NCBI GenBank assembly: GCA_025738555.1
Contig: JAOVFP010000002.1
Coordinates: 1,054,001 to 1,118,000, forward strand
Direction: 5' to 3'
DNA length: 64,000 nt
Source: Cyathus striatus
Taxonomy: Eukaryota; Basidiomycota; Agaricomycetes; Agaricales; Nidulariaceae
The position numbers were made by a program, and so were the translations under genes. Each line of letters opens with the position of its first letter. The first letter of the stretch is position 1. Under the pieces are notes generated by a model that saw nothing but the letters and a program-made list of their open reading frames with translations, made no database searches and was not told the DNA's origin. Below are positions 51,061 to 61,756 of this stretch, piece by piece.

Positions 51061-51129
51061 CGTGGAGGAGGCACTCGCAAATCACCGTTCCCACGTTCCC
51101 ACGCAGGGTGCATGTTTCCGTTCCATGAC

Positions 51130-51531
51130 TATGGAAAGCCTAACAACCACGCTCAAATGCATCAAATTATTTTGCATTCCGACATTCGGCATCACGGCTT
51201 TTCGGTTAGATATCTCATTTTTGTGTTTCAGGATTTCAGTTTTGCTTAGTGCACTCAGGATCGGCTAAATGAAAACTTGTGCTTCGGGATATTGCAAGTG
51301 GGAACAGCAATTTAATAATTAAAGTGCCATGCTAGGGATACGAGCTACATATTTATCATGTAGCTATCTAATCAACAAAATTTGGTTCTGAAATTGACAT
51401 GATTTTTGAAGTGTTATGTGGTACATACACAGTAGCACGGTTCACTCACCATTGGTAGCTTGAAGTGGACATGATTTTTACAGGTCAATAACTTTGTTTG
51501 GATTTATTCCTAAGCTACATCATATAGCTAA
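51130..51531. repeat. Left terminal inverted repeat of the 10.6-kb element
   Basis: Matches 61307-61750 in reverse complement. Relative to the right arm it lacks about 40 bases near 51445 (the right arm has a CGAGCGCGCC-containing segment there). Its inner end is a truncated unit of the 212-bp satellite, with GTCAATAACTTTGTTTGGAT. Confidence 0.85.
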
Positions 51532-51669
51532 ATAAGTACCATGAATATCAAAACCAATAAACTTTGAAGGTACAGTTAGCATTATATGGTAAGTAGCGAG
51601 GGTCACTGTACAAAAATCAAAATCATAGTATGTATGTAGCTTATAAGAAATAATCTCCAAAAGAATACA

Positions 51670-54600
51670 CTATGCTTCTTCCTCATCCTCACCCTCATCT
51701 TCATGTTCCCCATTATCAAATGAAAGAACAGGAATAAGTGTGGTATGTAGATCATGAAGTGCAAACCATTTACAGTATTTGTTGCAAACATGTTCAAATG
51801 GAAATTGATCAAAGGCATCACCAATATTTCCATCTCCAAAAAGTGCTACTTCGTCATCCAGTGATCTGAAATCAATACAAACTGTCAGACTAGATGTATG
51901 GCTGAAATTTTTAAATAACTTATGGCAATGTCATAATCTGAGGGTCACATAGTACACTGGAATTTCCTGAAAGGTAAATATATGTTAGCATGAATTTTAA
52001 ACTGTGTATAATAGGGGAAAATGGCACCTTGAAAATCAGAGACATACACCAAAGCTCCAGTTTTCTCATATTGTACATGCTGAGTAAAGGAAAGAAACTC
52101 TGCAATATAGTAGAGGGGCTCTTCTTCTTCAAGAAGAGGAACTGCTGATCCATTATTTATGAATTTAATGAATTCTCCATCATTCTTATGTATCAACTCT
52201 TCAAGAAGATATGCTTTATGAGCTGTTCCTACCTTTGCCCCAGCTTTCATAGCTACAGATTCCTGAGCAATACCTAATCCTGCATTGACAAAACGAATTT
52301 TTGGAATATTAAATGGTGGGTTCCCCTTGATGGAAATACTCTGAGTGGTGAAGGCATAAGAATATGATAGCAATGAAGTAGCCCAGTAGACAACATTTGC
52401 TTCAATAAGAGTTTTGTCAAGCTCAGTGTCATAAGCAAAGCGTTGGTATGTCACTTTCTGTGGTACAGAGCTGCCACTAGCTTTCTTCCTTCCTTTCGGC
52501 TTTTCTGGAATATATACACACTTCACAGCAACCTTTTGGTTTACTGTAGTCCCTAAACCGATCTCTAATAATGGAGTAACAGTTAATAGACCTTCATGAG
52601 CTGTCTTGCATGCTCCCACTCCAAGAGTCTCGCAGTTATATATGGTTACTGTGGCATAGAATGCATTGGATGGAGTGAATGATGTAGAGCAGGTGCCATC
52701 CAGAAGCTCTGTTAGTTCAGCATTGGGAATTGCATAAAATTGAATCTGTTCCACTACATTGTTGACTTTCCATATAATTTGAGTAATAAGACATTGAATG
52801 AGTAGGATTCATACATACCTGAATGTAATGGTATATTAGATAATAACCCACCTGTTTTTAATGCATCATGAATCTTTGCCTGGTCAGGAGATGCATATAG
52901 AGCAGTACACTTCCTCAATGGAATTGATGTTGGTGATAGATCGGCTGATCCTTGAGTATTCTAAGTAACTGTTAGTTTTGATTCACTATGTTACAAGTGG
53001 CTTAATCTTACTGTACGTGATCTTTTCTTTGCATCGTTCTTTCCTGGTGTCACAGGAGTTCTATTCTTTGAATTTGTATCTTCAGTATATTGAAATTGAT
53101 TTTTTATGGTTTCATTATTCACAGAAGCTGGAATATCAAAATTAGCAGCAGAGTCATTCTGCATAAGCAAGTAATTAGTAAATGATGACAATCAAGATGT
53201 GAAATCTAACCTGAACTTCCTGTGGGTTCATTAATAAATAAGACTGCATAAAATGAACAAGATATCAGCTTACTGCTTCAGAATCAATATACTCCATGTA
53301 ATCATCCCAGAGTGAAGCGGGGATTACAAGAGCAAGTATAAATGACTTTGCGAGTCGTGGCTTCAATTCTGATTGATCGCTGTCGGTAAGCTGCGGGGCT
53401 GCGAAATGTTTCGTCACCGAGAGGGTGATTGATTTCAAATATGGTAGGGCAGAATCAATTACTTACCATTTTAATAGTTTGAAATCATTGCTTGTATGTA
53501 GAAGTGAATATAACTGAAATCAATGCTAATTAGTATAAAATCAATGAGAGGTCAATCAATTAATTACATTAAGTAGAAATCAATCCCAGTCCGAAATCAT
53601 TAGAAATCATTAGAGTGAAATCAATGACAATTAAAAAAGAAATCAATGAGAAATCAGTCAAAAATCAATGAATAACTCGAAATTGTTAGGTACCCAACTA
53701 CAGAATATACTAAGTACTAGGGTGGTTAACTATATACATATACTTACTTTATCTACTAGACCATTAGTCCTTTTCTAACAAATAAACTTTACTCTATATT
53801 ACACATACCTGGAGAGCGAAATCAATGTTGAAATTAATCATTTGTACTTAGTTTAAATTACATTTCAAAGTGAAATCATTGCTGAAATCAATCCTTTTGG
53901 ACTTTGTAATATTATTGGTGCAAGTTTGAAATCATTGGGAGATCAATGTAAATTCCAAGGGAAATAAATGCGAAATAAATGCGAAAATCAATGTTAAAAT
54001 CAATGTTATATAATATGGAAATCATTGCTAAAATCAATGCTAAATTTAATGTTATTTCAATACTTGTTTTTATTTATTTTCATCATACATAAATGTACAT
54101 AGTATGTAAAAGTGTTATAATAGTAATACTCCTACAGCTTAGAAAATTCGGTCACGTGATTTCATCGTTCTACCATTTTTGAAATTAGTGCACCTCTGTG
54201 AAGGCTATAAAATAGAATGAAATAATATATTGATTTTAGTATTGATTTACCATTGATTTCCCTATGATATAACATTGATTCATTTATTTCCCTTGGAATT
54301 TACATTGATCTCCCAATGATTTCAAACTTGCACCAATAATATTACAAAGTCCAAAAGGATTGATTTCAGCAATGATTTCACTTTGAAATGTAATTTAAAC
54401 TAAGTACAAATGATTAATTTCAACATTGATTTCGCTCTCCAGGTATGTGTAATATAGAGTAAAGTTTATTTGTTAGAAAAGGACTAATGGTCTAGTAGAT
54501 AAAGTAAGTATATGTATATAGTTAACCACCCTAGTACTTAGTATATTCTGTAGTTGGGTACCTAACAATTTCGAGTTATTCATTGATTTTTGACTGATTT

Positions 54601-56105
54601 CTCATTGATTTCTTTTTTAATTGTCATTGATTTCACTCTAATGATTTCTAATGATTTCGGACTGGGATTGATTTCTACTTAATGTAATTAATTGATTGAC
54701 CTCTCATTGATTTTATACTAATTAGCATTGATTTCAGTTATATTCACTTCTACATACAAGCAATGATTTCAAACTATTAAAATGGTAAGTAATTGATTCT
54801 GCCCTACCATATTTGAAATCAATCACCCTCTCGGTGACGAAACATTTCGCAGCCCCGCAGCTTACCGACAGCGATCAATCAGAATCGAAGCCACTGGTGA
54901 CTTTGCAGGTTTCTTGAATGTCTGCTTCATATCCTTTCCCTTTCCTTTCCCACCCTTTCCCAGTGTCAAACAATGCTCATAAAAATATGGATGATCTTGA
55001 TCTTCACATGAAAGGTCTGTCCAAGTTGAAAGCTCATGAATAGTGAGTAATTTACTATCAAAATGAAATCCATGCATTGCTGCCTTGAGCTTCAATAGAA
55101 CAGTCTTCTCAACCAGTGCCATCAGTTCAGCAGGTGTTGAAATTGCTGGGACATTCTGACATCCCTCCTGAATGTTCTATTGGAAATAAAATTGATATGA
55201 GTATAATATTACTGTACTGAAGTAAAATTACACACCAAGACCAGTTCTGGCTTTGATTTTGCAGGAACTTCACGTACAACTTGTATAATAATACCAATTG
55301 TTTCCATTTGACGACTTTGATAGCTTAATTGGCGCATCTTGTCCTGCTCCATATTGTATAGTCCATGTGCACCAGAATATCCTGTAGCAGAGACACGTTG
55401 ACCAGAAGATGTTCCATAGCTATTTCCACTTGATATCCATGCAGATGGTATACCTACAGCTGGAAATTGACTATTTGCAGACACATGAGATATATTGTAC
55501 CATGGCTGTATAGAGGATGTTGGATTGAAACCATTCGGCAATGGTGTAACTTTACGTGCAAGAAATTCTGAGTCTATATCAAATGAAATTAGTATATCTA
55601 TCTATTAAAGCACAGAAAGAAGCTGTACCTTTTTGCTGAGCCTGATTCACAGAAGCTCTAATGGCATCCATGTCAATTGTTGTGACCTCTTGTGAAGGCC
55701 TTAGCTGACGAGAAAGAGCTGGACCTAAATATTTTGATAAGTACTATTACCTTCATGAATATGGATGCTGCATATTGATAATAGAATCAGGCTGGGAAGA
55801 TTGCTTAGAGCGATTGTATTTCTGAGCAATATCTGGTCCTAATAGATATATCAATATTGAGTGACAATCAAAGAGGAGAAAATGTTACTTAGAATTGTAC
55901 CCGACTTTTTTGCATAATGATCAAAGCATTTGTCACACACAAATTTACCTTTAGATTCACTCTTCAAGTAGTGTTTAGTATCCCCAGGCTGGAGTACAGT
56001 GGTACAACCCTGTCAACCACAGGGGATCGCCTTGTTTGCATGAGCATCTTCTGTAAATATAGTAATTGCTTCAATGTTGTCATTGTTGTCATTCATAATT
56101 GCGTG
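51670..56105 (-). pseudogene. Alpha-kinase (MHCK/EF2K family), interrupted by a MITE
   Basis: Alpha-kinases are atypical Ser/Thr kinases. The N-terminus (about 56030-55890) holds a zinc-like pattern: C-G, TGA stop, Q-G-C-T-T, then F-V-C-D-K-C-F-D-H-Y. A Ser/Gln-rich linker spans several exons (55800-55210), then K-L-L-T-I-H-E-L near 55050. The kinase domain occupies about 52754-51770: V-A-V-K-C-V-Y-I (candidate ATP-binding Lys), E-F-L-S-F-T-Q-H, G-A-L-V-Y-V-S-D-F-Q-G, L-C-D-P-Q-I-M-T, then F-G-D-G-N-I-G and H-V-C-N-K-Y-C (the family's Gly-rich and zinc-binding signatures). An acidic tail ends at TAG 51672-51670. Defects are the TGA near 56033 and the insertion at 53352-54897. The kinase-domain exons look intact, so function may have been lost only recently. 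Confidence 0.8.
53352..54897. mobile_element. 1.55-kb long-TIR MITE with 9-bp TSD inside an alpha-kinase exon
   Basis: Flanked by TGACTTTGC (53343-53351 and 54898-54906). The arms, about 700 bases each and nearly identical, span almost the whole element. They start with GTGGCTTC followed by ATTCTGATTGATCGC and are full of GAAATCAATG / CATTGATTTC motifs, so the single strand would fold into one long hairpin. A 9-bp TSD and very long TIRs fit the Mutator superfamily. Removing the element and one TSD joins the kinase frame across K-P-A-K and S-F-I-L without a shift. The MULE transposase gene at 13.8-23.6 kb could be related to its mobilising source, but no end match ties them. Confidence 0.85.
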
Positions 56106-56816
56106 TAGGCAAGAGATGAGAGGAGCAAATACAACAGTATGAGGTGATAGCAGATGGGACTTCAAGACACAGAAGATGAGTGATGCAATTTTGCTTCTAT
56201 CACACCTTTTATTTATATATCCAGCCCAGATAAATATTTGAGTGTAGAAAATAATGGTCTTAGTCCTGAATTTACACTCAAGTGTGAAAAACCAGACACA
56301 TGCTGAGGTATGAAAATACATGAGGCCATAAACACGGAAAGTCATGGCTGTATGAGTCATAATATGAATCAGAATAGAAGGCAGCAAGGTGCTATACTTC
56401 ATAATAAAATTGCATGAGGATGTTTACTGAGCCATGCCAATTGCATCTAGACCGTTATATATTAGTGTAGTAATCATATTGCTGTTTCATAAATGTAATC
56501 AGCTGTGTAAATAAACACATTTAAGACCAGGACAATACAAATGTGACATACATGCTGTGATCGAGTACAAGTGTGAGGCAAGACATGCTGCAGATAAGTA
56601 TCATATTATGGGAATAATTTCTGAAACATTCTGCAGCATGATGTCAAAGGCTGTTCCACTAAGCATAATCATTGTTCAAGACTGCCTCATTTTCCAAATA
56701 CCATACATTACTTGAATAGACTCTCTATTCCGAAATCATTATAAATACCATGTACATTAATACAAACTTTTCTTCACCACTTTATCCCAATTATACAATA
56801 CTGCTGTCTTTCATCT
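56106..56816. promoter_or_regulatory. Divergent intergenic region between alpha-kinase and integrase gene
   Basis: About 700 bases between two head-to-head genes, presumably holding both promoters. AT-rich; I cannot point to a specific core element. The open minus-strand stretch 56013-56402 overlaps the kinase 5' end and may be leader. Confidence 0.4.
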
Positions 56817-58723
56817 ATGGCTAGAACTGGGTGCAAAAATCAGTACATGCCTAATCGTAAGTAATGATGATGCTTCTACTGCATATATTCATTCTACTTA
56901 CAATTCTGTAGCTCCCATTGAGGATATTGCACCACATATACTCAGGTATTGGAAGATGTGTTTGTCAGATAAGGATATACTTGGATATCTCAAGACACAA
57001 CACATTGATTCTATGAAGTATGGTTTGGGGTAAGTGTTCTGATGTGCATATATATATGTTTAGTTGTTAATACTATATTTCAGACTTACTAAGTTCATAC
57101 AGTTGCGTGAGAGTATGGGATTGTTCCGAACTCGGAAGCAAAACCATGATGTTGAGAGTATCCACCCTGCTATGACATGCCTTCGTGTTCAATATCCAAA
57201 TGCAGGTGCTCGAGAAATGATAAGCCTATTGTTTCATGAAGAAAATATGGCAGTATCAAGGTGCGAAGCATATGTGTAATGAATAGATAATTGGTAATTG
57301 ACTTATGCACACAAAGACGAGTAGTTACTTCATACTTTGCTCTGTATGAAGCAGACCTTGTTAGGCAGTGCTGAGCCAACAGGTTGCGCCGGAAAAAATG
57401 GTGGTCTGCTGGTGTTAATGATATAGTTGCAGTGGATCAGCATGACAAGTGGAAGTATAAATTTGGTCTGGGGCTGCATACAGGAGTTGAGCCGTTTTCA
57501 GGAGTAATCCAATGGTTGAAAGTATGGCACACAAACAGCAATCCTAAGCTAATATTTAGCTACTATCTTGATTCAGTTTCACAATTAGGAGGTAGGCATT
57601 CTTTTTTAGTTGAAAAGAATAGGACTGAGTATAATTTAGCAATGCCACTTGTAACACAAAGTGATCCAGGTTCTGAAAATTTTGGATTGGCAAATGGACA
57701 TACATTTCTTTGCCACTGGCATGATCCATCTCTGTCACGAACACTTCAACACCGCTGGATGCGACAGAAAAAGAATGTCAAACCAGAAATTACATGGTCA
57801 CAGCTCAGGCGATGTTTTACTCCTGGTTTTGAAGACATTCTTGACCATGGTGTTCAAGAAGATTGGTACCATCCAGACAACACAGTTGAAGCGTAAGTTA
57901 TCCTTCATTAATTTTGAATACAGACTTAAATATTACTATTAGAATGGTCTTTCGATGGGTATTTATCCCATGGTTGCAGGGGGAGTTAGATGGTTACAGG
58001 GACCATGTTAACAACACTGCAAAACGTGCAGATCAAAATAAAATTCTCCCACATGGAGTCCCCAATGACATATATTACAATCCAGCAGAATATGGTGTCT
58101 TGGACTTTAAGGTATGCATACTGAAGCTTTGTATAATTATCTACTGCTAAACATGTCATAGATAACAGTTAATCCAGCAGCTATACAAGAAGCACGTACT
58201 CTGTTCTGCCCTATCGATGATCCTGTTTTCGAACTTGTTCCAAAATCATTTTCAGACTTAGCACATGAAATTTATGCTCAGAATAATGCTCCAGTCATTA
58301 CAAGGAATAATGTATGGGATGTGTATCTGTTTATTCTAACAGCTCTTCAATCTCTAGATGATATTCTGAATGCTGTTCATGATGGGTGGACTGGGGCTAT
58401 TCAAACCCCATGGCATGAAGTTCATGATGTAATTGAACTACATCCTAATCTTACAGAGTTAGAGGGAGGTATTGAAAATGCTGGAGAGGACGGATCATAT
58501 TACATGGGAGGTGTTAATAATTGACAGGGCTTGGGTGAGTCTTTATCTTGACTTTAATTATATGTCATTGAACTCATGTTAATAAGATGACACACATTCA
58601 TCCCAATTGGATGCAATGATGAATGCTGAAGATCCACTTCTTGAGGGTGAAGATGATGTCCCAGAGTTTGAAGTGATTTTTACTTCTGATGAAGATGAGA
58701 GTGATGACAATAATGACCGGTGA
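56817..58723 (+). pseudogene. Integrase-core (rve/rva_4-like) protein, candidate transposase, with two in-frame TGA codons
   Basis: The ATG at 56817 (M-A-R-T-G-C-K-N-Q-Y) is followed by GTAAGT-type introns. The N-terminal part includes R-K-Q-N-H-D-V-E-S-I and P-N-A-G-A-R-E-M. The core has V-A-V-D-Q-H-D-K-W (Asp at 57435), T-Q-S-D-P-G-S-E-N-F-G (Asp at 57663) and V-K-P-E-I-T-W (Glu at 57786). If the 48-nt segment 57592-57639 (GTAGGC...TTAG) is removed as an intron, spacing is D-59-D-40-E, close to retroviral-type integrases. Further exons hold V-N-N-T-A-K-R-A and V-W-D-V-Y-L, with an acidic tail ending at 58723. TGA codons occur near 57375 (C-stop-A-N-R-L-R-R) and at 58522-58524. Otherwise well preserved. 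The role as transposase of the surrounding element is inferred from position. Confidence 0.75.
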
Positions 58724-58859
58724 AATAGCTCATAAGTGTACAGAAGACTTGTAGTACACTGTAACATGGAATGTACCTGATGTACTATGACACAAGTGTC
58801 GCTTTCATTCTTTTTCCAATTTGTGGTGATTTCCTTCTGTGATGCCACTATAGTTATGC

Positions 58860-61380
58860 TATGTATTCAAGCTTGTTATTTGAATCAAATAGGGTTAATC
58901 ACCAACAAATTTTTTATTCTGTTCAGTTGCTGATGGTGTCTCCATATGTTCATCACCTCCCTACAGCACACTCAGAACTAGTAAAACACTTCTGTGTACT
59001 TACCATGTACTCACTGGTCTTGGATATATGTGCAGAGAATAGATATACATGTCCTTAATATATTTAGCTATATGATGTAGCTTAGGAATAAATCCAAACA
59101 AAGTTATTGACCTGTAAAAATCATGTCCGCTTCAAGCTACCAATGGTGTTTACATATGTTTACCATGCCCCTTTGGCACACTCAGAACTAGTAAATCACA
59201 CTGCCGTGCACTTACTACATACTCACTGGTCTCAAATGTACATTCAGAGTAGAGATATACATGTCATTAATATGTTTAGCTATATGATGTAGCTTAGGAA
59301 TAAATCCAAACAAAGTTATTGACCTGTAAAAATCATGTCCGCTTCAAGCTACCAATGGTGTTTACATATGTTTACCATGCCCCTTTGGCACACTCAGAAC
59401 TAGTAAATCACACTGCCGTGCACTTACTACATACTCACTGGTCTCAAATGTACACTCAGAGTAGAGATATACATGTTATTAATATGTTTAGCTATATGAT
59501 GTAGCTTAGGAATAAATCCAAACAAAGTTATTGACCTGTAAAAATCATGTCCGCTTCAAGCTACCAATGGTGTTTACATATGTTTACCATGCCCCTTTGG
59601 CACACTCAGAACTAGTAAATCACACTGCCGTGCACTTACTACATACTCACTGGTCTCAAATGTACATTCAGAGTAGAGATATACATGTTATTAATATGTT
59701 TAGCTATATGATGTAGCTTAGGAATAAATCCAAACAAAGTTATTGACCTGTAAAAATCATGTCCGCTTCAAGCTACCAATTAGGGCTGTACACCGTATCC
59801 GTACTATACGGTTTACGGGTAACCGTATTTACGGACCCGTACCGTTTTTGAAGGGGCCTCGAGCGATGCTGTTACGGTACGGCTTAAGCCGTGCCGTCTA
59901 CCATACATTCACCGTACCGATACGGCCGTATTACGGTCACATACGGACATACGGTATATAACTTCTTAGCAGTGATAAATCAACAATTAGCGTGTTTTCT
60001 TGACCTCAAACCTACTTAAAAACAACGATAAGCATGTCCATATACATCAAATCTGACCATTTAGATAAAATATAAACTGTTTTTTCGCAATTTGCACCAC
60101 ATTTACACCTTGAAAGAAATCAAGATTCAATTCTCAACTCTTGAGAAATGCTAACGTGTGTCTTGAGTATCTTTGTGGTAATTCCTATTCACAGGCTGGC
60201 ACTAGTGAGTTACTTATTACATTGCAACAGTTGACTCTAGTCTTTCTATCGGACGTGCTTGGTACTACTTAATTATAGTCTACCAAAAGTATTAATGATT
60301 ACTTGCTCGTAGTTATGGTTTTCTATGTAAATATTATCCTTTAAATTAACTTGATGCAGATTCGAGAAACGGTTTCCTCGGGTGCAAGGCCTAGACATTT
60401 ATAGTATCACTGATCAGCCCCTCACCATATGGTTTGTATATGTGAATGTCAAACTTACCCGATACATGACCCCGCAGCGGTAGGTCTACTACAGAATAAA
60501 TACTACTATATGGGGACCAGGCTACTCACAATATTGGCAACGAAGCGGTACATATGTAAGTTAGTAACACAATAGCAATGGGTAAATAAAGAGAGTGACT
60601 AGACATTCTGAAATCCACCTGAAATGATCTCACACTGTTAGCAGCTTCAACCATAAATACAGTAATCTGTTCGTTACTTACCTAGGACGAACTATATAAT
60701 CGATTCCCTGACTATAACCATACATTCAAACAGAAGAGTGACAACATGTAGTCAACCTAAGCTTAGAGATATTTAATAATACATGTAAAGTCCTGAGTCG
60801 ACATCGACGTCAAACAGTCTCGACAACTAAATGTATTTCGTAAACTCATACCTAGGTTCCGGACACTACTTATTGTCATTACTTTTTAATGGATTTATTC
60901 TCTAGCTGCTATTGTTACCTGAGTCAATACTACTTGTAGAAGTATGTAGGAATCGAAATAATACAGGTAAAACGGATTTTTGAAGAAAAAAATTGGAAAT
61001 ATAACCCGTAACCCGTATAAATCCGTCCCGTAGCCGTAAAACGGTCCGTACCGTTCTGTCAAGGCCAAAAAAATCATCTATACGGTACGGTTTACGGGAA
61101 ATCCGTAACCGTCACATGACCGTACGCTATACGGCCGTATACCGTTTACGGTACGGTGTACAGCCCTACTACCAATGGTGTTTACATATGTTTACCATGC
61201 CCCTTTGGCACACTCAGAACTAGTAAATCACACTGCCGTGCGCTTACTACATACTCACTGGTCTCAAATGTACACTCAGAGTAGAGATATACATGTTATT
61301 AATATGTTTAGCTATATGATGTAGCTTAGGAATAAATCCAAACAAAGTTATTGACCTGTAAAAATCATGTCCGCTTCAAA
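58860..61380. repeat. 212-bp subterminal satellite of the 10.6-kb element
   Basis: Exact 212-base spacing of the ACCTGTAAAAATCATGTCCG block (from about 59107, 59319, 59531 and 59743, then near 61352 after the hAT-like insert). A first unit at about 58900-59106 is more diverged. Each unit includes TTTACATATGTTTACCATGC and TTTAGCTATATGATGTAGCT. The last unit runs into the right TIR. Each unit gives a 61-codon frame that is only a shadow of the repeat. Confidence 0.9.
59781..61168. mobile_element. 1.39-kb hAT-like element with 8-bp TSD inside the satellite
   Basis: Flanked by CTACCAAT (59773-59780 and 61169-61176). The termini are TAGGGCTGTACACCGTA and the exact reverse complement. Subterminal regions are dense in ACGGTACGG / CCGTACCGT motifs. 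No transposase is encoded. The ends and the 8-bp TSD fit hAT. The interrupted satellite unit is restored when the insert and one TSD are removed. Confidence 0.9.
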
Positions 61381-61750
61381 CTACTGATGGTGTTTACATA
61401 TGTTTATCATGTCCATTTGGCGCGCTCGGAGCTAGTGAACCGTGCTACTGTGTATGTACCACATAACACTTCAAAAATCATGTCAATTTCAGAACCAAAT
61501 TTTGTTGATTAGATAGCTACATGATAAATTTGTAGCTCGTATCCCTAGCATGGCACTTTAATTATTAAATTGCTGTTCCCACTTGCAATATCCCGAAGCA
61601 CAAGTTTTCATTTAGCCGATCCTGAGTGCACTAAGCGAAACTGAAATCCTGAAACACAAAAATGAGATATCTAACCGAAAAGCCGTGATGCCGAATGTCG
61701 GAATGCAAAATAATTTGATGCATTTGAGCGTGGTTGTTAGGCTTTCCATA
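61307..61750. repeat. Right terminal inverted repeat of the 10.6-kb element
   Basis: Reverse complement of 51130-51531 apart from a segment of about 40 bases missing on the left. The outermost 300 bases differ at only a few positions. Confidence 0.85.
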
Positions 61751-61756
61751 CATGAC

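Follow-up and report, generated by a model that had tools for sequence, protein, structure and literature searches.

An IS3EU-type DNA transposon of Cyathus striatus with a conserved alpha-kinase as its second gene

What is a protein kinase doing on a DNA transposon, and does it belong there? The question is raised by a 64,000-nucleotide stretch of the genome of the agaricomycete Cyathus striatus (assembly GCA_025738555.1, contig JAOVFP010000002.1, positions 1,054,001–1,118,000 of the forward strand), which we refer to as “the window”. An element of 10,621 bp, at 51130–61750 of the window, carries two divergent genes, one encoding an integrase-type transposase and the other an alpha-kinase. 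Here, we argue that this is very probably an element of the IS3EU superfamily, and that the alpha-kinase is a standing second component of its lineage that most likely helps transposition. The ends and genes of the element are as follows:

51124–51129, no strand: left target site duplication (TSD) CATGAC, read directly, an exact match to the right copy
51130–51446, plus strand: left terminal inverted repeat (TIR), 317 bp, beginning TATGGAAAGCC..., from a repeat search
51670–56096, minus strand: multi-exon alpha-kinase gene, hand-drawn model, broken by a TGA at 56013–56015 and by a nested insert
51670–51930, minus strand: last kinase exon, an open frame with FGDGNIG and EHVCNKYC, from alignment with solved alpha-kinases
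51948–52760, minus strand: main alpha-kinase catalytic exon, open, from the open frame and genome matches
56097–56816, no strand: divergent region of ~0.72 kb between the two modelled gene starts
56817–58723, plus strand: IS3EU-type transposase gene, from a hand-drawn model, PF24764 and homologues
56817–56856, 56912–57029, 57084–57260 and 57317–57591, plus strand: transposase exons of the hand-drawn model
57640–57892, 57943–58111, ~58162–58523 and a last exon ending at 58723, plus strand: transposase exons of the same model
57435–57788, plus strand: integrase-like catalytic core, D152 to E253 (D-59-D-40-E), containing the intron 57592–57639
61434–61750, minus strand: right TIR, 317 bp, ending ...GGCTTTCCATA, from a repeat search
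61751–61756, no strand: right TSD CATGAC, read directly, an exact match to the left copy

The two TIRs differ from one another at only 2 positions. Inward of the left TIR, a further 82–88 bp of homology (51447–51534) is repeated several times near the opposite end. The 27-bp terminus has 293 forward and 297 reverse matches in the genome (≤2 mismatches), far beyond chance given that a reversed-pattern control has none. Termini of the form TATGG...CCATA are found in the window element, in a copy of a second subfamily on C21, and in all 10 further elements for which both ends were retrieved. A preliminary description of the window had proposed inverted termini flanked by CATGAC, two divergent genes with alpha-kinase signatures and a D-59-D-40-E core, and a size of 10.6 kb. 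The termini, duplication, gene layout and motifs all hold. The size is correct as a span; however, it is inflated by two nested elements, without which, and without their extra duplications, the element measures 7,670 bp, close to the 7,321 bp of the C21 copy.

The transposase gene model was drawn by hand, and its first acceptor was not re-fitted. The spacing of the catalytic residues (D-59-D-40-E) is exact once the 48-nt in-frame intron is removed, with the first catalytic D at residue 152 from the N-terminus. The protein matches PF24764 (rva_4 integrase core) at 34.1 bits, above the cut-off of 26. In its predicted structure, the integrase core region alone was matched, with the N- and C-terminal parts barely covered, and a search of the sequences of solved structures with a transposase profile gave 0 matches. 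The preliminary description took the integrase-core protein to be the transposase, and it remains the best candidate.

The alpha-kinase has a Cys-containing stretch toward its N-terminus and the alpha-kinase domain toward its C-terminus. The PF02816 profile matches above its cut-off, and the protein also qualifies as an alpha-kinase by fold; structural alignments to alpha-kinase chains show 14–22% identity and barely cover the N-terminal parts. In alignments with solved alpha-kinases, FGDGNIG and EHVCNKYC, which includes the HVCNKYC signature noted earlier, fall on the glycine-rich and H-x-C-x3-C segments. The H..H-x-C-x3-C positions of alpha-kinases act as zinc ligands. The Cys-containing N-terminal stretch (~56096–55900 in the window; CGRSSC...CDGC in locus L030) is common to several homologues and is possibly a putative zinc-binding segment. 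A Pfam scan of ten other open frames in the window found no family above cut-off.

Does the pairing of these genes extend beyond one locus? Genome matches to the core exon of the transposase number 79 and fall into 43 loci; those to the kinase exon number 83 and fall into 74 loci. At 37 of the 43 transposase loci, a kinase homologue lies within 12 kb, where uniform placement predicts 0.7, and the two genes are divergent in 37/37 cases. Termini were sought around these pairs using GG-type ends with ≤1 mismatch (100 of 101 sites), with six window-type ends added manually. Correctly oriented ends lie within 5 kb on both sides of 8 pairs, on one side of 8, and on neither side of 21, and a wrongly oriented terminus lies within 5 kb of none of the 37. 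All 8 two-sided pairs, with both junctions read, have an exact 6-bp TSD (the window, C21 with CTAACC, and six others), bearing out the proposal of a DNA transposon with head-to-head genes between TATGGAAAGCC termini. The preliminary description had counted TIRs lacking both genes, together with genes lacking the TIR, as grounds for refutation. Both exist, which is what a family containing non-autonomous and decayed members would show, but TIR-bounded pairs with TSDs are present as well. Pairing with the kinase marks one transposase lineage, since 27 PF24764 loci lack any PF02816 match in 12 kb (a short kinase fragment lies near one of them, and not all candidates were scored).

To compare the histories of the two genes, 23 loci were aligned: the window, a related copy (L009, C2:377000-386000), C21, and 20 pairs picked from the remaining 34; at one locus, C10z, only 149 kinase codons were aligned. 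Protein distances for the kinase and the transposase are strongly correlated (r = 0.93), with 0 of 5000 permutations as high. At dS 0.05–1.2, the ratio of nonsynonymous to synonymous substitution rates (dN/dS) has a median of 0.186 over 73 kinase pairs and of 0.062 over 75 transposase pairs; at dS 0.3–1.2, the medians are 0.18 (65 pairs) and 0.06 (72 pairs), respectively. Because the pairs are not independent, these figures are descriptive. At the level of such codon comparisons, the medians show both genes under purifying selection between subfamilies. By contrast, among near-identical copies (dS < 0.1), the pooled ratio of nonsynonymous to synonymous differences (pN/pS) is 0.56 for the kinase (60 pairs) and 0.95 for the transposase (61 pairs), a pattern to be expected where copies, once inserted, are free to decay and the lineages that propagate are kept functional. 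Stops occur within the sampled exons of several copies. The catalytic D, D and E of the transposase are retained in 22/23, 22/23 and 23/23 loci. In the kinase, the VAVK lysine is retained in all 22 readable loci, the D of DxQG in 22 of 23, and its Q and G, as well as E187 and H228, in all 23. That the two genes are often paired in a single orientation and diverge in step, with purifying selection and conserved residues, establishes the alpha-kinase as a standing second component of the lineage, not a chance passenger. The label “passenger”, used in the preliminary description, undersells a conserved and co-inherited gene.

To which superfamily does the element belong? IS3EU elements are described as having TA..TA ends, usually 6-bp TSDs, and a first catalytic D 100–300 residues from the N-terminus (PMC10045372, available text). 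In the available text of Kojima (2025, PMC12730594), TET+ elements from seven Pucciniales species, with 6-bp TSDs and TAYGG..CCRTA ends, are classed as IS3EU, and in every TET+ IS3EU family a TET/JBP gene lies between oppositely oriented transposase and alpha-kinase genes. The window element has TAYGG..CCRTA termini, a 6-bp TSD, an integrase-like DDE transposase with its first D in the 100–300 residue range, and a kinase opposite in orientation to the transposase, as in all 37 pairs. There is no room for a TET/JBP gene in the ~0.72-kb gap between the genes; the 0 matches of a genome-wide Tet_JBP search carry no weight, as its controls were equally silent. Judged on these features, the element is by every one tested an IS3EU member. 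In the expected mechanism, the TATGGAAAGCC ends would be bound by the integrase-type DDE transposase and inserted into target DNA at sites staggered by 6 bp, producing the 6-bp TSDs; the ends, TSDs, catalytic triad and predicted fold are observed, and the chemistry is what we infer. The kinase may help, with the transposase or a host factor as its substrate, and we consider the chances of such a role, as opposed to others, to be even.

The window copy itself has been heavily altered. Its inserts and subterminal repeats are as follows:

53344–54906, no strand: first nested hAT-like non-autonomous element (53352–54898) with its TSDs, from a repeat search and the empty site in L009
58933–59780, with the rest at 61177–61440 beyond the second insert, no strand: subterminal tandem repeats with a ~212-bp unit, from a repeat search
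59773–61176, no strand: second nested hAT-like element (59781–61168) with its TSDs, read from the sequence

The arms of the first nested element, each of 614 bp, are 100% complementary, and its 8-bp TSD, GACTTTGC, lies at 53344–53351 and 54899–54906. This element splits a kinase coding exon; kinase homologues continue uninterrupted across the insertion point, and in L009 the site is empty, with a single GACTTTGC. The second has TAGGGCTGTACA-type ends and an 8-bp TSD, CTACCAAT, at 59773–59780 and 61169–61176. We take both to be hAT-like, presuming so from the 8-bp duplications and the ends. The ~212-bp subterminal repeats are also present in other copies and are possibly multiple putative transposase-binding sites. 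The transposase has an in-frame TGA at 57372–57374 and possibly a second at 58522–58524; because of these and the in-frame TGA in the kinase, the window copy is not autonomous as it stands. Relative to L009, a transition is present at 39 of 90 CpG positions, compared with a total of 63 other differences across 3,210 aligned positions, and the CpG observed/expected ratio is 0.30 over the 3.2 kb on the transposase side of the element versus 0.60 in positions 1–50000 of the window. This CpG-biased decay suggests methylation-type silencing. After two hAT-like insertions and CpG-type decay, the window copy could presumably move only with help in trans.

Shorter derivatives are also found. Nine further copies of 1.7–3.6 kb, from a scan that tolerated ≤1 mismatch, have TIRs and exact, different 6-bp TSDs, and 8 of the 9 retain a stretch of kinase exon (~element positions 938–1097). 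Two of these copies on different contigs, L022 and L023, are 99.84% identical with different TSDs, indicating recent movement. Four TIR-bounded elements have a kinase match and no transposase match, three of them with an exact TSD. The fourth, C9:2518542-2521488 (L088, L089), has TIRs and no TSD, and the 10 bp flanking it on one side read as the reverse complement of the 10 bp on the other, suggesting rearranged ends. Two other terminus-bounded intervals of 7.2–7.3 kb, C12:1472278-1479620 and C7:1973425-1980648, have no listed match to either gene, and most of their ends read ...CTCGA; they are possibly a further related family.

Several observations weigh against an IS3EU element with the kinase as its second component. 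A search with the joined flanks of the window insertion turned up no empty site, a check that the preliminary description had proposed; the flanks match only themselves. L009, the second two-gene copy of the window subfamily, has no recognisable left end, and 21 of the 37 pairs are without a terminus of the searched types (ends of other subfamilies were not fully searched). A kinase is absent within 12 kb at 6 of 43 transposase loci, and a transposase at 37 of 74 kinase loci. Foldseek alone gives no transposase match at E ≤ 0.001. The superfamily assignment is based on features rather than on sequence comparison with the IS3EU transposases of Repbase. Lastly, E120 of the kinase (window exon), otherwise conserved, is Lys in 4 of 23 loci. 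The abundance of the terminus, with ~590 genomic matches where 43 transposase loci need far fewer, might even suggest that the two TIR copies are dispersed repeats with no relation to each other, flanking the genes by accident. Near-identical 317-bp arms, exact TSDs at every two-sided pair, the lack of misoriented termini near any pair, and terminus counts far above the control lead us to reject chance or unrelated repeats, an explanation that is now scarcely credible.

Explanations that accept the transposon and differ over the kinase deserve more weight. The kinase could be host-serving or neutral cargo, i.e., a captured host gene that hitch-hikes with no part in transposition. The kinase loci without a transposase, the exact TSDs of three kinase-only elements, and a constraint weaker than that on the transposase (0.18 versus 0.06) are all consistent with this. 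Neutral cargo should decay between subfamilies, yet the kinase median of 0.18 shows otherwise; its VAVK lysine, DxQG motif, E187 and H228 are almost invariant, its orientation is the same in every pair, and the same pair is reported for TET+ IS3EU elements of rusts and Tuber (PMC12730594, available text). We therefore regard cargo as unlikely. By analogy with the TET/JBP genes of some IS3EU elements, the kinase might instead be a counter-defence factor that relieves host silencing. The heavy CpG-type decay suggests that there is silencing to relieve, and Kojima proposes TET as the answer of some relatives to it (PMC12730594, available text). The same decay shows that the kinase did not protect these copies, and a counter-defence role seems rather improbable. 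A kinase that is a standing component and most likely assists transposition thus continues to be the reading we favor.

If so, how much of the alpha-kinase repertoire of mushrooms could be of transposon origin? The preliminary description saw in the element a route for alpha-kinase expansion. In this genome, 24 of 35 PF02816 matches, counted as exon-level matches rather than genes, coincide (≤1.5 kb) with homologues of the window kinase. Of these 24, 19 belong to loci paired with a transposase, and the other 5 have none in 12 kb; the proposal leaves the remaining 11 matches unexplained. In other species, 530 transposase homologues were found at E ≤ 0.001. Of the best 120, all but two have a named source, in each case a mushroom-type fungus, and most carry PF24764. 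A kinase search gave 20 matches, also from mushroom-type fungi; a wider search with an alignment query gave 2, one being the query's own first sequence. Four of the 20 lie on contigs equal in species and size to those of listed transposase matches (Mycena belliarum, 251147; Favolaschia claudopus, 1528280; Mycena capillaripes, 4001673; Suillus clintonianus, 76911), suggesting that the genes are linked in these species. Alpha-kinases are highly expanded in rusts and absent in Microbotryomycetes, with a table row showing 79 and 39 in two columns (PMC4469406, available text). Since IS3EU is also reported from rusts, it is plausible by analogy that much of the rust expansion consists of transposon copies. 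We give slightly less than even chances to a joint claim: that the kinase functions as a second component in IS3EU transposition, and that the alpha-kinase expansions described for mushrooms and rusts are largely transposon copies rather than host signalling genes. Should many alpha-kinase genes prove to belong to transposons, comparisons of kinomes would in part be measuring transposon load. The element is in any case a clear example of a DNA transposon keeping a protein kinase under selection.

How does the element compare with known systems? Its kinase has the fold and motifs of the alpha-kinases TRPM7/ChaK, eEF2K and MHCK A, among them the aligned H..H-x-C-x3-C positions; unlike them, it has an N-terminal region of its own and sits on a transposon. 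Polinton/Maverick elements have a 6-bp TSD and a retroviral-type integrase, and also carry additional genes, e.g., for DNA polymerase B and capsid. Here, by contrast, two genes fill ~7.7 kb and the transposase matches PF24764; polymerase B and capsid were not searched for. Kyakuja, Zisupton and other fungal transposons with TET/JBP cargo likewise combine an enzyme gene with a transposase in basidiomycetes, but differ in transposase superfamily and cargo (PMC12730594). IS3EU/GingerRoot elements have the same integrase-related DDE transposase, TA..TA ends and 6-bp TSDs, a likeness by description rather than sequence comparison, and the available text of the 2023 IS481EU paper in which they appear has 0 mentions of alpha-kinase (PMC10045372). 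The closest match is to the TET+ IS3EU elements of rusts and Tuber, with the same ends, 6-bp TSDs, and opposed transposase and alpha-kinase genes (PMC12730594); they have a TET/JBP gene where the window element has only its short gap, whereas here the closest named homologues are from Agaricomycetes and the TIRs range from 317 bp (window) to ~720 bp (C21). Within the open-licence literature, i.e., excluding Repbase Reports, an alpha-kinase on a transposon is described in the available text of PMC12730594 and not in that of PMC10045372, PMC5295586 or PMC4469406. Hence a categorically new superfamily is rejected, and the earlier statement that no named superfamily has this gene pair is superseded: the pair, ends and TSDs were in print by late 2025, and the window element is a TET-less relative. 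The present analysis adds statistics on gene pairing across the genome, evidence of purifying selection on the kinase, a set of derivatives with the kinase alone, and a measure of how many alpha-kinase matches relatives of the element explain.
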